From contig PSRM01000343.1 in assembly GCA_003176045.1 (NCBI GenBank), positions 1-64,000 of the forward strand: 64,000 bases of DNA. The letters are read 5' to 3'. The position numbers and the translations under genes are program-made. Positions 12,022 to 60,846 of the stretch are shown one piece after another. Position 1 is the first letter of the stretch, and the number at the start of each line of letters is the position of its first letter. The notes beneath the pieces were generated by a model. The model had not been told where the DNA came from. It made no database searches and saw only the letters and a program-made list of their open reading frames with translations. The stretch is from Verrucomicrobiota bacterium. Lineage in GTDB: Bacteria; Verrucomicrobiota; Verrucomicrobiia; Limisphaerales; UBA8199.

Positions 12022-12095
12022 GGGCACCGGGTGAGGGCCCCCGGCCTACAGGATCAACGGTTCATAGTTGTAGGCCGCGTGCCCTCACGCGGCGC
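12022..12095. repeat. R2 palindromic repeat, copy 1
   Basis: The arms are ACCGGGTGAGGGC...CGGCCTACAGG and TTGTAGGCCGCGTGCCCTCA, separated by about 20 bases. It is related to copies at 54973-55043 (same orientation) and 59245-59317 (inverted). It lies just 3' of the GbsR gene. Confidence 0.9.
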
Positions 12096-12158
12096 TATCG
12101 CTAACTTCTGCAAGCAAGCACCAGCCAACTCAATGGGTCGTGAAATCTCCGGCGCTCG

Positions 12159-38728: not shown

Positions 38729-41242
38729 ATGAGTCTGCGCACTTATTCCCCGCGGCTGGCGACAGCCAAGGGTTGGGTTTTGGCGCTGGCCTTGTCTTGG
38801 CTGTTCGCTGCCCCGATCCAGGCGCAAGTGCCGGCTGAATACGCGCGACTGGCGGCAGACATCAATCTATCGCCTGTCAGTCCTGCCTCCGGTAATTTAA
38901 TTGTTTTCAACAATGCTCTCTATTTCGTAGCCAATGATGGCTCTCATGGGAGCGAACTGTGGCGGTACGATGGAACGACCGCAACGCGCGTCACGGATTT
39001 GTCGCCCGGCAGCGCGAGTTCGCTCATCACTTCGCTGGCCTTGTTGAACGGGGCGCTTTACTTCCGCGGTTCGGGAACGACCAATGGCACAATAGATTCG
39101 CAACTCTGGAAATACGATGGCACCAACGCGACACGCATCACTGAGATAAATGCCGGCAGCGGCGGCTTCCTGCCCTCCGGCATGACGGCTTACAATGGCG
39201 CGCTTTACTTCTCCGCCAATGATGGAACCAATGGCAACGAGTTTTGGAGCTATGACGGTTCGACGCTCAGCATGGTGGGCGATCTGAATCCCGGCGCGGC
39301 CAACTCGAACCCGTTTGGCTTCACCGTTTACGACGGGATTCTCTTTTTCACAGCCACAACGGCCATTAACGGGACCGAGTTGTTCACCTGGGACGGCTCG
39401 AATTGGGCGATGCTGGACATCAATTTCGGGTCGGTTAGTTCGTTCCCGTCCGGGTATACCGTTTATAACAATCTGCTCTATTATGCGGCCAGCAATTCGG
39501 TTTCGGGCATGGAGCTTTGGTATCTCGACGGCTCGAACTTTGCCTACGGACAGGTTGCCGACATCAACCCCGGCGCCGCCAGTTCCAATCCCGCCAACTT
39601 CAGAGTGTTTAACGGCGCGCTTTATTTCTCGGCCAATGATGGCGTCAACGGCACCGAGCTGTGGAAGTATGATGGCACCAGCGCCACGCGCGTGACGCAA
39701 ATTGCCGTGGGTAGCAGCAGTTCGAGCCCGGCCAACCTGTGCGTCTATAACAACGCTCTTTATTTTTCGGCCAACGATGGCACCAGCGGCACAGAGTTGT
39801 GGAAATACGATGGCAGCAGCGCGGTGCGGGTGGCGGACATTAACCCCGGCAGCGGCAGTTCCAGCCCCAACAACCTGACCGTATTCAATAACCAGCTTTA
39901 TTTTGCCGCTATTGATACCAACTCGGCGCGGGGCCTGTGGCGCACCGACGGCTCATCAGTCTCCCTGGTCACCAATGTCAATACCGGCAGCGCCGGGTCT
40001 TCGCCTTACGCCGGCATCGCCTTTAACGGGGCCTATTATTTCGCCGCACTGCCCACCAACAATGCCCTGAACAATTACTTCTACAAATACGACGGCACCA
40101 ACACCAGCGTGGTCAGCACCACAAAATATCCTCCGAACGGAGCCATCGCTCAGTTCGGCAACGCCCTGTATTTTTCAACCTGGAAATTCGATGGCACGAA
40201 TTTCACTGCGCTGGCAGGCAATCCTTTGCCCACCAGTGTGAGCGAACTGCGCGTGTGGGGAAACGCGCTCTATTTCAACGGGCGAGACAATACCTATGGC
40301 AATCAACTCTGGAAATGCGACGGCACGAACATGACGCGCCTGACGACCGTCAACCCTAGCTACGGTCTCAATCCGCTGGCGCTCACTGTTTTCAATGGCG
40401 CACTGTACTTTTACGCGACGGCCGACTTTGGCGCGACTTACGGCCTCTGGAAGTATGATGGGGTCAATTCACCGGCGCGCGTCGGCACCATGATTCTTGC
40501 CACCCTCAACAGCCTGCTCCTCTATAACGGCGCGCTCTACATGGGCGCCGCGGCCAGCGGCACGGATTTTGAACCATGGAAATATGACGGGACTAACTTC
40601 ACTCTTCTGGCCGAGGTCAACGCCTTCCACACCAACGCCACGCCAATTTTCTGGACCACGTGCCGGAACCAGGCCTTTTTCTCCGCCAATGACGGCGTCC
40701 ATGGGACCGGCTATCAACTTTGGAGTTGGGACGGCTCCAGCGCCACCCGCATCTCGAATTTCGCAGTGAGCGGCGGATTTTATGCCTTCGCTCTCAGCAA
40801 CACGCTTTATTTTGCAGGGAACGACGGCGTAACCGGGTACGAGCTATGGAAATACGATGGCGCCAATCTGTCGCTGGTTGCCGACATCAACCCAGGTGCC
40901 GGCAGTTCGCAACCACAGCCGCTTTCGCTTTTCAACAACGCCTACATGTTTATAGCCAATGACGGACTGCGCGGCAGCGAGCTTTGGCGGCTGGACCCGC
41001 TGGCCGACGTGTTCCGGCTCACGCGCATCGCGCGGCAGGGGCAAGATGTTTCCCTCACCTGGCTCAGCCCGGGCGGCTGGACCAACATCGTGCAGACGGC
41101 AAATGATTTGGTAAGCGGTTTCACCGATTGCAGCCCCTCCATCATCTCCCCGGGCAGCGGGCTCGCCACCACCAACTACCTGCACCTGGGCGGCGCCACC
41201 AACCGCTTCTCGCGCTATTACCGCATTCGCCTGGGCCCGTAA
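38729..41242 (+). CDS. Secreted ELWxxDGT-repeat protein
   Basis: An 837-residue exported protein. The signal peptide is 'WVLALALSWLFAAPIQAQ'. From about residue 60 to 780 there are repeating units of about 45-50 residues. Each has the pattern 'LYFSANDGTSGTELWKYDGS', then 'V.DINPGS.SS.P', the ELWxxDGT (hyalin-like) repeat that usually folds as a beta-propeller or solenoid. About 14 units can be counted, some degenerate. The C-terminal 80 residues ('VSLTWLSPGGWTNIVQTAND') form a beta domain ending 'RYYRIRLGP', like the ends of the other large secreted proteins here. No catalytic residues. A cell-surface adhesin or matrix role is likely but unproven. Confidence 0.85.
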   Translation: MSLRTYSPRLATAKGWVLALALSWLFAAPIQAQVPAEYARLAADINLSPVSPASGNLIVFNNALYFVANDGSHGSELWRYDGTTATRVTDLSPGSASSLITSLALLNGALYFRGSGTTNGTIDSQLWKYDGTNATRITEINAGSGGFLPSGMTAYNGALYFSANDGTNGNEFWSYDGSTLSMVGDLNPGAANSNPFGFTVYDGILFFTATTAINGTELFTWDGSNWAMLDINFGSVSSFPSGYTVYNNLLYYAASNSVSGMELWYLDGSNFAYGQVADINPGAASSNPANFRVFNGALYFSANDGVNGTELWKYDGTSATRVTQIAVGSSSSSPANLCVYNNALYFSANDGTSGTELWKYDGSSAVRVADINPGSGSSSPNNLTVFNNQLYFAAIDTNSARGLWRTDGSSVSLVTNVNTGSAGSSPYAGIAFNGAYYFAALPTNNALNNYFYKYDGTNTSVVSTTKYPPNGAIAQFGNALYFSTWKFDGTNFTALAGNPLPTSVSELRVWGNALYFNGRDNTYGNQLWKCDGTNMTRLTTVNPSYGLNPLALTVFNGALYFYATADFGATYGLWKYDGVNSPARVGTMILATLNSLLLYNGALYMGAAASGTDFEPWKYDGTNFTLLAEVNAFHTNATPIFWTTCRNQAFFSANDGVHGTGYQLWSWDGSSATRISNFAVSGGFYAFALSNTLYFAGNDGVTGYELWKYDGANLSLVADINPGAGSSQPQPLSLFNNAYMFIANDGLRGSELWRLDPLADVFRLTRIARQGQDVSLTWLSPGGWTNIVQTANDLVSGFTDCSPSIISPGSGLATTNYLHLGGATNRFSRYYRIRLGP

Positions 41243-53929: not shown

Positions 53930-53930
53930 T

Positions 53931-54015
53931 TTGGAGTGCGGCGACATGTCGCCGCTTTGGAACACCGCGACATGTCGCAGTGTTCCAAAGCGCGGACATG
54001 TCCGCGCACTCCAAA
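53931..54015. repeat. Composite GCGACATGTCGC palindromic element
   Basis: TTGGAGTGCGGCGACATGTC, GCGACATGTCGC and GCGGACATGTCCGC occur in succession, with TTGGAACAC/GTGTTCCAA arms. It lies between the convergent ccsA and YfhO genes and may serve as a shared terminator. Confidence 0.85.
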
Positions 54016-54028
54016 AGCTTCGCCCTAA

Positions 54029-56554
54029 CTAAGCTCGCCGTCGGAGGATTCCTGCGAAACAGCCCACGAGAGTAACGAGCGAGACGATGCTTCCGATCTG
54101 GAACGCCCGGTCCTGATACACAAGCCTCAAATGTCCCTTGCCAGGCACCTCGACCGCTTGAAACGCATAATTCGCTCGCAAGACAGCGAGGGGGTAACCA
54201 TTAAAAAAAGCGCGCCAATTGTGATAATAGGTTTGCGAGAGGACGACGAAGCAAGGCTCCGAAGTTTCAATTTGAAAATCCAACTGCTCCGGAGTGAAGC
54301 GCTCCAATTGAACTGCGGATGCACTGGCCGCTCCCTTATGGTCGCGGCTCCGTTGGGACGGAAGAAATACCAGCTTCCGGCCATCGAAATTCGGCGAGAG
54401 CAGCGCTCGCACTGCATTTGTATCATCCAGAAAAACCGGCCGCTGGCCCGCAGTGGCAAACGGGAGAAAGCTATCGCGCGGTTGCCATTTCGAGAGTTCG
54501 CCCGGCGCCGTTTTTTGCGAGACACCCATGAAATCCTCGAGGCGCGTATAATTGGCATTCGTGGAACCGTAGAGAATCGAGGCCAGTTCACCGCACTCAC
54601 GCGGATACAGCGAGAAAAAGCCATTCACCTTGGGCACGTGATCAAGCAGGTTGCAGTCGGCAAAATAGCCGGCTCGCTTGGCGAGGAAGTTTACCCTTTG
54701 ATCTTTGGCAATGAATTCCATGAACCTCTTTTCGGTGGATGGACCGAGCATGGCGCGGGATTGTCCCGCTTCTGGCTGCGGGTCCATTTTCAGCAAAGCA
54801 CGTGCGAGGCCGGGCTCATAAAGCGAGGCTGCTCCGGCCGGCACGGTGGGATTCTGATTCGGTTCGTGCGTCCACACATCGAGCCAGCAAAACACCAGCA
54901 GGACAAGTGGCGCCCATTGCACGAGACGTCCAATTGAACGCTCGCCAACATCAGATTCCTCTGACTCCGAAACGCCGGGTGAGGGCACCCGGCCTACAGG
55001 ACCACTGCTTTGCGCTTGTAGGCCGCGTGCCCCCACGCGGCGCTGCGTTAGCTTCCAGCAGGCAGTCAAGATGAGAACTGCACAAACCAGGAACCCTGCA
55101 CGCTCCAGCCCGTTACGCAATGTGTTGGATAAGTTGTCCGTCGGAAACGGAGCGCGCCAGGCCCAAATAAGAATTGCTCCAATCAGAAACAGCAATATCG
55201 CTCCGACCCAGAGCAATCGCCCTCGCACCCGACACTCAAGGATCTCCGACCTCTGACTTCGTACGTCTGACTTCTGACCTCCATGTTTTCCGCGGCCCAG
55301 CAGGTTGGCGAAGCCGAACGCTGCGAGAAGCGGTACCGCGAAGACGATAACCGTGACATACTTAATCGGATAAGTCATCAGCCCCAGCAAAGGAATGGCT
55401 TGCCTCAGGCAATGGCCGGGGGGCGTCTGGTCGCCCAGTGCGAGAAAGAAAGCGATCGCGACTGCAATCGCAAGCAGTCGCACAGGTTGGGAGCGCCAGG
55501 ACCACAAAGCCAAAATCGCCAGCAATAGAGGGGCAATTCCAAGAAAATAGGATGATGTCCACGACTGATCGTATTGAAAGAAAACCCCAAGGTTCGACAC
55601 GTGTCCGAAAACCATCGGTACAAGAAAGTTGGCCCAACCCCAGCCAGGCAAGGACCACCGCGCATCAGCATACCCACTCTCTCGCTGTGAATGAGCCGCC
55701 AAATCGAGGAAAGGCAAGAGCTGGGCAGCAGCTAAGCCAGCAACCAACGCCACTATGAGCGGAAATCGCCAAAGGTGAGGGTGAAACGTGAAACGTGAAA
55801 CGTGAAACGTGAGACCCGAAGCGCGCGTTGGGATTTTGGAAGGCCGCTCCTCAGGGACCGGGCCTGAACTTTGAACCTCGAACTTTGAACCTTGAACTTT
55901 GAACCCTGAACTATTTGCCCGATCGGTCGCCCAGAGCGCAAGGCAGATCAACCAGGTGAACAAAATCGTCTCCGGCCCGCCGGCGAGCATCTGGAGCGCA
56001 CCCAGGAAGGCGGCTGCCATAATCATCCTTCCGCCTTCCGTCCAGGCCCTTTGCACGAACAAAACCACCCAGGGCATCCAACTCAGCGTCGCGATGTGGC
56101 TGGGCCACATCAGCATATTCAAAGTGAAACCGTTGAAGGCGAAAACCAGGCCTGCCAGCGCAGCCCCCAGCCGATTACCCGTCCATTTGTGCGCGAAAAA
56201 GTACATCCCGAAGCCGGCGAAAAACAGATGGAGCAGGCAAAAGAAACCCAGCGACCATTCCAGCGGCAGGAGGAGGTAAACCAGCGCAGGCGGATAGAGG
56301 CACATCGTGTTCCACTGCGCTAGAAAAGGTAGCCCGCAGTTGTTGTATGGATTCCAGAGCGGCAGTTTGCCATGCCAAAAGCACTCGCGTTGGTAGTACG
56401 CCAGCGGATAGGCAAAAAAGCCATAGTCCCTTACAACAAACGTTTGCAGCCCGAGGATGACCTGCGGAAAGGAGGCAAAAATTAAACCACCAAGAATCAG
56501 GGCGAACCGGCCGGCAGAAAGCCAACTGCCAGATTCGTGTTCATTCGTGTGCAT
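54029..56554 (-). CDS. YfhO-family membrane glycosyltransferase-like protein
   Basis: About 841 residues from the ATG at 56554; the open frame continues upstream to a GTG at 56764 inside the GH9 gene. The GT-C-type layout has 10 or more hydrophobic helices. The N-terminal motif 'VVRDYGFFAYPLAYYQRECF' followed by 'LPLWNPYNNCGLPF' is typical of YfhO proteins, which modify cell-wall or surface glycans using lipid-linked sugars. The C-terminal soluble region (about 560-810) ends with 'YHNWRAFFNGYPLAVLRANY', the usual YfhO ending, then one more helix. At least three segments are translated repeats: 'FKVQGSKFEVQSS' with 'TFHVSRFTFHP', 'KSDVRSQRSEI', and 'RVGARGLQAQSSGPVGRVPS'. It overlaps the GH9 stop by 14 bases. 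Confidence 0.8.
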   Translation of the reverse strand: MHTNEHESGSWLSAGRFALILGGLIFASFPQVILGLQTFVVRDYGFFAYPLAYYQRECFWHGKLPLWNPYNNCGLPFLAQWNTMCLYPPALVYLLLPLEWSLGFFCLLHLFFAGFGMYFFAHKWTGNRLGAALAGLVFAFNGFTLNMLMWPSHIATLSWMPWVVLFVQRAWTEGGRMIMAAAFLGALQMLAGGPETILFTWLICLALWATDRANSSGFKVQGSKFEVQSSGPVPEERPSKIPTRASGLTFHVSRFTFHPHLWRFPLIVALVAGLAAAQLLPFLDLAAHSQRESGYADARWSLPGWGWANFLVPMVFGHVSNLGVFFQYDQSWTSSYFLGIAPLLLAILALWSWRSQPVRLLAIAVAIAFFLALGDQTPPGHCLRQAIPLLGLMTYPIKYVTVIVFAVPLLAAFGFANLLGRGKHGGQKSDVRSQRSEILECRVRGRLLWVGAILLFLIGAILIWAWRAPFPTDNLSNTLRNGLERAGFLVCAVLILTACWKLTQRRVGARGLQAQSSGPVGRVPSPGVSESEESDVGERSIGRLVQWAPLVLLVFCWLDVWTHEPNQNPTVPAGAASLYEPGLARALLKMDPQPEAGQSRAMLGPSTEKRFMEFIAKDQRVNFLAKRAGYFADCNLLDHVPKVNGFFSLYPRECGELASILYGSTNANYTRLEDFMGVSQKTAPGELSKWQPRDSFLPFATAGQRPVFLDDTNAVRALLSPNFDGRKLVFLPSQRSRDHKGAASASAVQLERFTPEQLDFQIETSEPCFVVLSQTYYHNWRAFFNGYPLAVLRANYAFQAVEVPGKGHLRLVYQDRAFQIGSIVSLVTLVGCFAGILRRRA
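54973..55043. repeat. R2 palindromic repeat, copy 2, inside the YfhO gene
   Basis: CGCCGGGTGAGGGCACCCGG CCTACAGG and TTGTAGGCCGCGTGCCCCCA arms, in the same orientation as 12022-12095. Translated in frame on the minus strand as 'RRVGARGLQ...GPVGRVPSPGV'. Confidence 0.9.
55241..55282. repeat. TCTGACTTC-type tandem tract inside the YfhO gene
   Basis: Units of CTCTGACTTC/GTCTGACTTC are repeated four times and translated as 'GGQKSDVRSQRSEI'. Confidence 0.8.
55780..55912. repeat. GTGAAAC and TTTGAAC tandem tracts inside the YfhO gene
   Basis: A GTGAAAC tract of five units (about 55780-55812) and a TTTGAACCTTGAACTTTGAA tract (about 55866-55910) are both in frame. They encode the 'TFHVSRFTFH' and 'FKVQGSKFEVQSS' segments within a loop of the membrane protein. 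Confidence 0.9.
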
Positions 56555-56568
56555 TCGTGGTTTCAAAG
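56529..56568. repeat. ATTCGTGT tandem tract at the GH9/YfhO junction
   Basis: ATTCGTGTTCATTCGTGTGC carries three ATTCGTG units. It encodes both the last residues of the GH9 protein and the proposed first residues of the YfhO protein (MHTNEHESGS). Confidence 0.8.
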
Positions 56569-58352
56569 GAGTCGCATAAAACGAACAGCAGAATAGCAGA
56601 CGCCGTGCCGTCCATCGTCGGCTCATTGGTCGAGTAATCCTGCGCGTCATCATGATAAACCGCCGGCCCCTGGAAAACGGCCAGTGGATCAGGTTCGGTG
56701 ATCCCGACGCCTTTGAGCGATTTAAAAATCCGGGCATACACCGGCCCGTCCACGAGTCCGCCACGAACAGCGCGGCCCGTCAATTGCACGGTCATCAGAT
56801 GCGGATCTCGAGGCCAAACACTGCCGATGCCCGTAAACATGGTATAACCCCACGGATTTCGACCCAGCAACCAGTCCCGTTGCCGTATCGCGAAGCCGCG
56901 GTAGCGTGCGTCGCCAGTCATCTTTTCATACAACAAACATTGCGTCGCTAGCGCCACGATCAGATTGTTCGAGCACCATATAAAGGGCACGCCGGCGCGA
57001 TAAGGACTTTTCTGTCCGACCCGCACGCAGGACTCAATCCCCTCGCGGTAATATCCGGCGAGTGTGCGCTTGAACTTCGCATCCACCAGATCGTAGAGCC
57101 GGAAGTGCCCGAGGTTAATAAACGGGTAGTACTGATAGTGCCCCGTTTGCTCTCGGCCCATCCAGGATTCGGCAGCCACCAGCGTCGCGTAGTGTTTAGC
57201 ACCTGACAAAAATCGGCGTTCATGAGTGGCACGATACAGCTCAGCCGCGCCCCATTCCATGTCGTCAGCCCAGGTTGTTTCTTCGTAGCGATAAGGGGCT
57301 TTATACGAATTCCCCTGCTGCACCCCTGCTTTGGCGCGTCCCAATTCATAGACTTCTTTGCCGGCTTGCAAACAACGCTCGGCGAAAGGCCGTTCGCGAG
57401 GATCATCATTCCAAACTTGCCAGGCCAGCGCCATGGCTGCGGCGTAACGGCCTGCCAGATTCGCGACTCCAGTCGAGTCGCTTTTGTATTGCTCAAGCCC
57501 CTGCGGTTTGCCGTCCGCGAAATACACGACACGCCCGCCGCCCTTGCCCCAGCCATAATCGGTTATTTCATTTTGCGGCAGCCGGCGGCCAATGTGGTCG
57601 CGGTCATCAGCCACCTGGTGATAGAGTTGATCCGGCGCGGGGTGCAGCTTGAGCATCCATTCCAGGCCCCAGCGGGCTTCATCCAGGAGGTCCGGGATTC
57701 CATTCGGTCGTGGCTGGCCGAGGCTGTTTACCCGGTCACGGAAAATGCCACGCGAACTTTGGACTTTGGGCCCTGGACTTTGGATTAGATACGCCAGCAG
57801 CATCTGGGCCGTGGCGTTGCCCGAGGTAAGGAGATATTTGAGCTGATCCGCCGCATCGTGCCAACCGCCACGCGCATCAAGGTAAGTTCCATTTGTCAGC
57901 GGGCCATACGCGATGCGGCCATCGAATGGGTGGCAGACAGCATCGAGAAACGGATTGTAGCCGCAGCGTTGCTCGCGCATGAACTCGAGCAGTTGCTCAG
58001 GCAGTTCTGCATAAGCGTCGCGCGCTATGGCGAACGGCAATGATTTAGTCTGACCCACCTGCAAGAAGTAATGGCCCGGAGATTTGAGCGCTGAGAAATT
58101 AAGCTCCACATGATGATCGAACTGGCCCCAAGCGCTGTCCGTTATGGCCGAAGCCCTTCCCCGGAATACAATCGCCTCGGAATCAGTGGCGATTACCTCG
58201 AAGGAGTCTGGCAGCCTATTCTTTGAGAAGGCGATCGCGATCTTCTTGCCCGAAGGCGAATAGCCTAGTTGGTTTGCGCGCACAAAGATCTCCTCAGCGT
58301 GGAGGGCCATGCTGAGGCAGCAATAGGCTTGAACGAAGATCAGGCAGCGCAT
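56541..58352 (-). CDS. Glycoside hydrolase family 9 enzyme
   Basis: A 603-residue secreted glycosidase from the ATG at 58352 (a GTG at 58382 is possible). The signal peptide is 'CLIFVQAYCCLSMALHA'. Residues about 20-105 form the CelD-type Ig-like domain ('IFVRANQLGYSPSGKKIAIA'). The (alpha/alpha)6 catalytic domain follows. Its nucleophile/base Asp pair is in 'GGWHDAADQLKYL', the His region in 'RDPHLMTVQL', and the proton-donor Glu in 'DYSTNEPTMDGTA'. Family 9 enzymes cleave beta-1,4-glucans, and some members act on glucosamine oligomers. The neighbouring deacetylase favours an amino-sugar substrate, which is inference. Residues near 190-200 (IQSPGPKVQSS) come from an inserted GGACTTT tract. 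Confidence 0.88.
   Translation of the reverse strand: MRCLIFVQAYCCLSMALHAEEIFVRANQLGYSPSGKKIAIAFSKNRLPDSFEVIATDSEAIVFRGRASAITDSAWGQFDHHVELNFSALKSPGHYFLQVGQTKSLPFAIARDAYAELPEQLLEFMREQRCGYNPFLDAVCHPFDGRIAYGPLTNGTYLDARGGWHDAADQLKYLLTSGNATAQMLLAYLIQSPGPKVQSSRGIFRDRVNSLGQPRPNGIPDLLDEARWGLEWMLKLHPAPDQLYHQVADDRDHIGRRLPQNEITDYGWGKGGGRVVYFADGKPQGLEQYKSDSTGVANLAGRYAAAMALAWQVWNDDPRERPFAERCLQAGKEVYELGRAKAGVQQGNSYKAPYRYEETTWADDMEWGAAELYRATHERRFLSGAKHYATLVAAESWMGREQTGHYQYYPFINLGHFRLYDLVDAKFKRTLAGYYREGIESCVRVGQKSPYRAGVPFIWCSNNLIVALATQCLLYEKMTGDARYRGFAIRQRDWLLGRNPWGYTMFTGIGSVWPRDPHLMTVQLTGRAVRGGLVDGPVYARIFKSLKGVGITEPDPLAVFQGPAVYHDDAQDYSTNEPTMDGTASAILLFVLCDSFETTNAHE
57755..57788. repeat. GGACTTT tandem tract inside the GH9 gene
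   Basis: AACTTTGGACTTTGGG and CCTGGACTTTGGATTAG are in frame and encode 'IQSPGPKVQSS' between two conserved helices of the catalytic domain. Similar tracts are intergenic at 4212-4254 and 22332-22395. Confidence 0.85.
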
Positions 58353-58403
58353 TTGAGCCAACAGCTCACAGAATGTTCCCACCCGCCGATGGCTGCAAGA
58401 AGC

Positions 58404-59432
58404 TTATGATCCGGTCTTGAGCAACTCATCCACCCGCACGGGCCTGTAACCGCGTTGGTACAAATGATCGAGCAGCTCACCAAATAGCCTATGGAATTTA
58501 TCTGCCCGCCCCGGCCCGGAACCTACGTGCAGGAGCAAGAGGAATCCGTTCAGTCCGTTTGGGTCTTTCCTCTCTTTCTCGAGGATGCTGGACAGAATTG
58601 CCTTCGACGAAACGAAATTCGTATCGGCTTCTCCGGTGTAATCGGCATTTGAACGCGTGCCGGGAGTGTAATTGACCAGCGTCAATCCCATGGCGCCAGC
58701 CCACGAGACGATTTGCGCATTGTAATGCTCGAATGGCGGAAGGAAATAACCGATCCGCTCCCGGTTCACACCGAACATTTCGATCTTGCGCAAATTGCTT
58801 TCGAGATCGGATTCAAATTCAGCGCGGGTAACCAATGTTTTCTTTGGACCATACCACGGACAATAAAGCAAATGCTTATCCGAATGTGGTCCCAAGTAAT
58901 GGCCTTCAGCCACGATCCGTTCCACGACCCCTGCGAAATTCGTGTCGGCCAGGAAATCGCCAGTGAGAAAGAAAGATGCTTTGGCTTTGTGACGCTGAAG
59001 CTCGTCGAGGATGGTTTGCGCCCCCTCTGCGTAGCTGTGGCCGGTAAAAACAAGCGCAATTCGCTTGGAATCCTTCGGCCCGCGCACGATCCCCCCTTCC
59101 CGAACATCGCATGAGGATTTTTGTGGAGAGGCAGATTCGTTGCCTCTCGCACCCTCATAAGCAATGACAGAACTTGCTAATCCAATCGTCAGGGAGAGGC
59201 AGGCTGGCAGGCGTGTGATCAATGCCGCTGCGAATGCCAACAGAGCGCCGCGTGAGGGCACGCGGCCTACAAGCCAAAACCGGGGCTCCTGTAGGCCGGG
59301 TGCCCTCACCCGGCGTTCCGGTGTGTGGAGGAATTTATTGCAGCCTCTTCCGAAACAGCGCCCGCGTGGAAGGCTGCGCGAAAAAGCGCAGGCACAAACC
59401 CAATCCTCGTGCTGCGCTCCGCACCTGGGCAT
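58404..59432 (-). CDS. Divergent polysaccharide deacetylase (NodB fold)
   Basis: A frame of 342 residues; the functional part begins near residue 115. The NodB-like core reads 'RIALVFTGHSYAEGAQTILD', 'KASFFLTGDFL', 'GHYLGPHSDKHLLYCPW' (the His-x3-His metal site), 'YFLPPFEHYN' and 'GFLLLLHVGSGPGRAD'. In place of the canonical first motif (TFDDG) it has FTGHSYAEG, as in a divergent subgroup seen near GH9 genes, so the catalytic Asp pair is altered. The first 60 residues translate an R2 repeat (59245-59317). A GTG within that repeat, before 'PSRGALLAFAAALITRL', may be the true start of a signal peptide. The gene is 52 bases upstream of GH9 and probably co-transcribed with it. Confidence 0.75.
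   Translation of the reverse strand: MPRCGAQHEDWVCACAFSRSLPRGRCFGRGCNKFLHTPERRVRAPGLQEPRFWLVGRVPSRGALLAFAAALITRLPACLSLTIGLASSVIAYEGARGNESASPQKSSCDVREGGIVRGPKDSKRIALVFTGHSYAEGAQTILDELQRHKAKASFFLTGDFLADTNFAGVVERIVAEGHYLGPHSDKHLLYCPWYGPKKTLVTRAEFESDLESNLRKIEMFGVNRERIGYFLPPFEHYNAQIVSWAGAMGLTLVNYTPGTRSNADYTGEADTNFVSSKAILSSILEKERKDPNGLNGFLLLLHVGSGPGRADKFHRLFGELLDHLYQRGYRPVRVDELLKTGS
59245..59317. repeat. R2 palindromic repeat, copy 3 (inverted orientation)
   Basis: GCGCCGCGTGAGGGCACGCG GCCTACAA and CCTGTAGGCCGGGTGCCCTC arms. It overlaps the 5' end of the deacetylase frame. Confidence 0.9.
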
Positions 59433-60649: not shown

Positions 60650-60846
60650 ACGTGAAACACAAGTGAAACACACGTGAAACGTGAAACGTGAAGAAACCTG
60701 CAACATGCCGCAATTAACACCCAGTCTGGAGCCTTGGCGCTGGCGCTGTGCCTCCTCGTGGGGCGCTCTGGAGGTTTTCACGTTTCACGTTTCACTCATC
60801 ACGTTTCACGTTTCACTCATCACGTTTCACGTTTCACTCATCACTT
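60650..60846. repeat. GTGAAAC / GTTTCAC inverted tandem tracts
   Basis: A GTGAAAC tract (60650-60694) is followed 80 bases later by the complementary GTTTCAC tract with CATCAC spacers (60775-60846). The two could fold back on each other over tens of bases. The right tract abuts the stop codon of the RelE-like gene. Confidence 0.88.

Follow-up and report, generated by a model that had tools for sequence, protein, structure and literature searches.

How can one gene for a polytopic membrane protein hold several repeat tracts and still be read as a single frame? The question is raised by a YfhO-like gene in a 64,000-nt window (the whole stretch of DNA that was analyzed) from a Verrucomicrobiota bacterium. 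The initial annotation had reported an R2 palindrome together with TCTGACTTC, TTTGAAC and GTGAAAC tracts in this gene, all in frame, and took them to be unrelated, unusual for one intact gene, and a sign that loops of the protein are permissive sites. The tracts are real and in frame, all lying inside one 841-aa open frame of the minus strand (Table 1), and we consider it quite likely that loops and linkers tolerate them as near-neutral insertions, drawn from known classes of repeat.

The frame begins with an ATG at 56554 and stays open over the whole gene, and hydropathy predicts ~12-13 TM helices and, toward the C-terminus, a large extracytoplasmic domain. The Pfam YfhO model (PF09586) matches the C-terminal 80 residues with a score of 18.7 bits, below its gathering cut-off of 28.5, and another protein of the same genome scores above that cut-off; for both reasons we use the label YfhO-like. 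The YfhO-like gene overlaps, at its start, the end of a gene for a GH9 cellulase-like protein (56541-58382), and the two are therefore probably co-transcribed. R1, the palindromic repeat on the 3′ side, has a 94% copy at another place in the genome (L147:1238-1321), next to a gene for a Y1 transposase, and a 138-nt coding-like unit (GAGCTGTGGAAATACGATGGCACC...) is present at 38911-40908 of the window in diverged copies, both tandem and interspersed. The genome is a draft assembly, 86% complete and in 372 contigs, and misassembly could affect tract lengths.

To call the tracts unrelated was too strong, as three of the four named ones belong to a single class, period-7 heptamer arrays. On the gene strand, GTTCAAA, GTTCAAG and GTTCGAG units alternate at site 1a (TRF), and the TCTGACTTC tract, which had been read as a 9-nt one, consists of five degenerate 7-nt units (GTCAGAA-GTCAGAC-GTACGAA-GTCAGAG-GTCGGAG, 55278-55244). 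GTTCAAA and GTTTCAC are both stop-free on the gene strand and give stops on the opposite strand.

Table 1. Coordinates, in the window, of the YfhO-like gene, its tracts and the neighboring repeat R1
Feature	Coordinates	Strand	Encoded residues	Evidence
YfhO-like polytopic membrane protein, 841 aa (P0001)	54029..56554	minus		ORF, translation, full-length alignment, hydropathy
Palindromic repeat R1, 86 nt, just 3′ of the YfhO-like gene	53930..54015	.		repeat search
Site 1a, heptamer array GTTCAAR (TTTGAAC of the initial annotation)	55863..55912	minus	SGFKVQGSKFEVQSS	TRF, translation
Site 1b, heptamer array GTTTCAC x4.6, exact (GTGAAAC of the initial annotation)	55781..55812	minus	LTFHVSRFTFH	TRF
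Site 2, degenerate heptamer array GTCAGAA, five units	55244..55278	minus		sequence, alignment
Site 3, R2, pair of GTAG-type REP hairpins, tags facing each other	54964..55052	minus	RRVGARGLQAQSSGPVGRVPSPGV	repeat search, alignment
Decanucleotide tract ATTCGTGTGC x2.7 spanning the start codon (fifth tract)	56533..56559	minus		TRF

Insertion sites in relatives and paralogues

A comparison with orthologues had been suggested as a check, and we made it with nine full-length YfhO-like relatives that belong to the same GTDB family. Compared with them, the protein is extended by three segments, each between TM helices: aa ~213-258, corresponding to site 1 with its GTTCAAR and GTTTCAC arrays, aa ~426-437 (site 2) and aa ~504-540 (site 3, R2). 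None of the nine relatives (0/9) carries the same segments in the alignment, and all of them align cleanly on either side of every site, so the frame is not shifted. The three closest relatives share 52-56% identity with the protein over the alignment, and in comparison with them site 1 adds 17-26 aa, site 2 adds 14 aa, and site 3 adds 37 aa in total, a count that takes in the R2-encoded part plus the adjoining SESEESDVGERS. The site 2 loop has 31 aa here versus a nearly constant 13-17 aa in all relatives, and the site 3 loop is also nearly constant among them (5-6 aa in the part counted). At site 1, the loop measures 31, 40 and 38 aa in the three closest relatives and 19 in the rest; since it is already enlarged in those three, a portion of its length may be older than the tracts.

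Hydropathy averaged over the alignment of the protein with its relatives gives 12 helices. In the relatives, the loops at sites 1, 2 and 3 are rich in lysine and arginine (K+R fractions of 0.175, 0.227 and 0.294, compared with 0.05 in loops 1 and 5), and therefore, by the positive-inside rule, all three are predicted to be cytoplasmic. The insertions would thus map to three inter-helix loops on the same side of the membrane, the outcome that the initial annotation had proposed to look for by topology prediction. A single-sequence AlphaFold model of the protein reached a pLDDT of 41, too poor for use, which is why loop placement rests on hydropathy and charge. When the same-side pattern was sought in other tract-bearing membrane proteins, the topology calls shifted with the hydropathy threshold, and this crude method is unstable for the YfhO-like protein alone, too; for this reason, we claim sidedness for the YfhO-like protein only, from its nine relatives.

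A search of related loci for named relatives found none. Within the same genome, two YfhO-like paralogues (C123 and C335) bear different heptamer tracts, those of C123 in the counterpart of the site 1 loop and in the cytoplasmic loop that precedes it, and those of C335 in this preceding loop. The idea of permissive loops is supported, as the inserts lie in three inter-helix loops with aligned flanks and the paralogues are hit in homologous or neighboring loops. The insertions have no counterpart in the relatives, are in frame between predicted helices and consist of repeats that occur genome-wide; we infer that the extra residues are translated and near-neutral.

Repeat classes across the genome and the family

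R2 reads GTAG-G-CCGCGTG-CCCC-CACGCGG and, on the other strand, GTAG-G-CCGGGTG-CCCT-CACCCGG. It has the short hairpin with GTAG at one end and the many copies, as inverted dimers, that define GTAG-type REPs and REPINs, with copies at 12027-12096 and 59236-59324 of the window, at ~40 places in the genome and with matches in 7 other genomes of the family. Dimers of this type encode 20-30 aa inside genes, above all in O. terrae, which also belongs to the Verrucomicrobia, and loops or linkers have been suggested as their sites (PMC3733652, BMC Genomics 2013). R2 shares with them the two opposed GTAG-tagged hairpins, the high copy number and the in-frame intragenic place, and Y1 transposase genes are found in its genome as in GTAG REP/RAYT systems (five Y1_Tnp matches, four above cut-off). 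Unlike in the reported cases, several heptamer arrays are present in the same gene as the R2 dimer, whose link to a particular RAYT is weak: a single R2-type GTAG REP lies ~170 nt from the 3′ end of one RAYT ORF, whose other end has no clear REP of this kind, and this is suggestive only. R2 also lies in frame in the gene for apolipoprotein N-acyltransferase (Lnt, L012:1021-2871, aa ~160-191), and its reading phase there is that of the copy in the YfhO-like gene. A coding test of R2 by hexamer score was too insensitive, as it missed the YfhO-like gene's own copy.

Heptamer arrays are a property of the whole genome. Exact period-7 runs with at least 13 matched positions number 187 in 851 kb versus 0 in a Markov-3 simulation, so the class is not due to chance. 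Of the other periods from 2 to 24, none comes close to this frequency, and the multiples 14 and 21 rank next. Arrays of at least 18 nt number 247 in ~915 kb and comprise 59 distinct units, with GTTTCAC, CCAAACA and GTCCAAA at the top. Long SSRs are known in prokaryotes, among them the TAACTGA heptamer arrays of Beggiatoaceae (PMC4679880) and the GGGNATC arrays of Xanthomonas and Nostoc (PMC4692102), and such heptanucleotide arrays are described as mainly intergenic and under-represented in ORFs (PMC4679880, PMC4692102). The arrays analyzed here belong with them in being exact and genome-wide far above chance, in the dominance of period 7, the many loci, the patchy spread and the presence of the same unit in distant phyla, and places outside genes are still preferred. 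Unlike in those systems, many different units are found here in frame in conserved genes, often several per gene. A literature search on heptamer repeats in Verrucomicrobia found nothing specific.

The patchiness was seen at several levels. In DNA sampled from 13 family genomes, arrays reach 28 per 100 kb in G000, 18 in G007 and 36 in G008 and are rare or absent in the others, among them those that encode the three nearest orthologues. Overlapping matches to three units of GTTTCAC number 216 in the genome studied here, 209 in G008, 17 in G007 and 2 in G003; the remaining genomes have none, and the reversed unit gives 0 matches. Four units of GTTTCAC occur in many phyla among the matches listed, but in only 5 of 289 Verrucomicrobiota genomes, and the TAACTGA precedent (PMC4679880) is similarly patchy. 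The three-unit form has 423 matches in a Desulfococcaceae genome and ~130-160 each in two Chloroflexi genomes and a Thermoanaerobaculia genome, again with none for the reversed control; these genomes were picked because they match, so the counts speak for presence and not for rate.

Several arrangements of the arrays were also observed. Arrays that share a unit frequently lie as inverted pairs separated by 35-293 nt, with 28 pairs within 300 nt (for example, 60672-60844 of the window, L044:4176-4303, L052:19627-19753, L095:12379-12506 and L118:8018-8145), and at L097:9424-9647 inverted CGAAATC arrays bracket an R2 REP dimer. The CCAAACA class resembles a hairpin element with a common AGAGAAACACCAAGCTCC-like core. 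In a related genome (L297 and L298, on G008:C374), a stretch of ~20 kb has GTGAAAC and other arrays at intervals of about 2 kb, perhaps within a tandem gene family, and because this one locus dominates, the in-frame test in G008 was not used as independent evidence.

Frame retention and competing explanations

The YfhO-like gene is not unusual in this genome, as other genes of the genome match or exceed its tract number. A 1273-aa ORF (L108:13777-17598) holds nine exact arrays, and in a family of ten, most of them polytopic membrane proteins that have TPR domains, 8 members carry tracts; at L108:4509-17598, adjacent membrane/TPR paralogues each have different heptamer tracts. Genes called by a crude hexamer gene caller hold 80 of the 247 arrays. 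Array clusters that keep a distance of 50 aa or more from either gene end number 53, and 28 genes of at least 300 aa have such a cluster. Compared with sequences of solved structure, the inserts amount to ~43 aa in DnaK, ~106 in MnmG, ~51 in CarA and 7 in ThiC, and all are located at loops or linkers, that of CarA between its two domains. Tracts also lie inside an L-lactate permease, a copper P-type ATPase and a DEAD/Helicase_C_2 helicase (Pfam). Specificity for membrane proteins was considered and rejected: per gene, 14 of 28 tract carriers versus 41 of 256 gave p = 1e-4, but the enrichment was lost once paralogues were collapsed to families (6/43 versus 16/184, p = 0.39). The permissive places are therefore loops and linkers generally, not membrane loops in particular. 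These findings contradict the expectation from other bacteria that heptamer arrays avoid conserved coding regions, and they provide a natural map of insertion tolerance, in which loops and linkers of DnaK, MnmG, ThiC, CarA and polytopic membrane proteins can be extended without loss of the gene.

By a coding-flank test, which overlooks genes of atypical composition, 29 of 177 array clusters are intragenic compared with 939 of 2000 random sites, and this depletion indicates that insertion into genes is selected against. Of the clusters flanked by coding sequence on both sides, 23 are open and preserve the frame, 4 shift it and 2 preserve it and contain a stop; without selection, about one third would be expected in frame. 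The survivors are mostly in frame and open, and therefore follow the pattern of translated, tolerated inserts rather than bypassed ones. Because 7 is not a multiple of 3, a stop-free heptamer is open in all three frames of its strand, so only orientation and total length modulo 3 constrain coding.

We propose that the YfhO-like gene separately gained two classes of dispersed small repeats, the heptanucleotide arrays and the GTAG-REP dimer R2. R2 may have arrived by RAYT-type (REP/RAYT) transposition, and the heptamer arrays would be kept or expanded by slippage, with purifying selection acting as a filter on insertions. The inserts would have survived thanks to their place in cytoplasmic inter-helix loops, their stop-free orientation and a total length that keeps the frame. 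A further copying process for the heptamers, of hypothetical nature, may exist besides slippage, because a few units recur at very many loci, which slippage alone does not explain. In a bolder form, the arrays would be spreading, frame-tolerant DNA, copied between loci and genomes and a general source of in-frame loops, including those of essential enzymes. The basis for this suggestion, which we regard as doubtful, is that a few units recur so widely, GTTTCAC above all: at many loci of a single genome and also in unrelated phyla. With the same exact heptamer array in unrelated phyla, the origin and spread of such repeats, an old question, becomes testable.

Another explanation is that the tracts are contingency switches, where gain or loss of one 7-nt unit toggles the YfhO-like and other loaded genes by phase variation. 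Each such change does move the frame by one, and exact arrays of 3-5 units are slippage-prone in principle, but the tracts lie mid-gene in many unrelated genes, among them DnaK, MnmG, ThiC and CarA, which would be costly to switch off, of 29 intragenic clusters in this single assembly, 23 retain an open frame, and most tracts are outside genes, making this improbable. We give even less credence to the segments being a conserved functional feature, such as a cytoplasmic binding or regulatory surface: the three additions do share a predicted side, and the three nearest relatives likewise have a longer loop at site 1, but their sequences are common to no relative and the same peptides are found in unrelated proteins of the genome. 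Skipping by the ribosome or excision from RNA, as with the bypassing elements that occur in some yeast mitochondria, might suit inserts inside conserved, probably essential enzymes, but it is hardly credible, as elements of this kind need not keep the frame and both frame and openness are kept here far above the one third expected if the inserts were skipped.

Near-neutral insertion, the reading we prefer, also has a parallel in the Rickettsia palindromic elements (RPEs), which are in-frame inserts in proteins. Like RPEs, the inserts described here are in frame, lineage-specific and tolerated in conserved proteins, but RPEs are palindromes, and simple tandem arrays of a 7-nt unit make up most of the inserts here. 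RPE-4 and RPE-6 are treated in PMC3733652. Intragenic REPs and heptamer repeats are both of known kinds. If orientation and total length are the only constraints on coding, pure heptamer arrays should alter proteins in steps of 7 aa (21 nt), and the additions of 7 aa in ThiC and 14 aa at site 2 of the YfhO-like protein agree with such steps.
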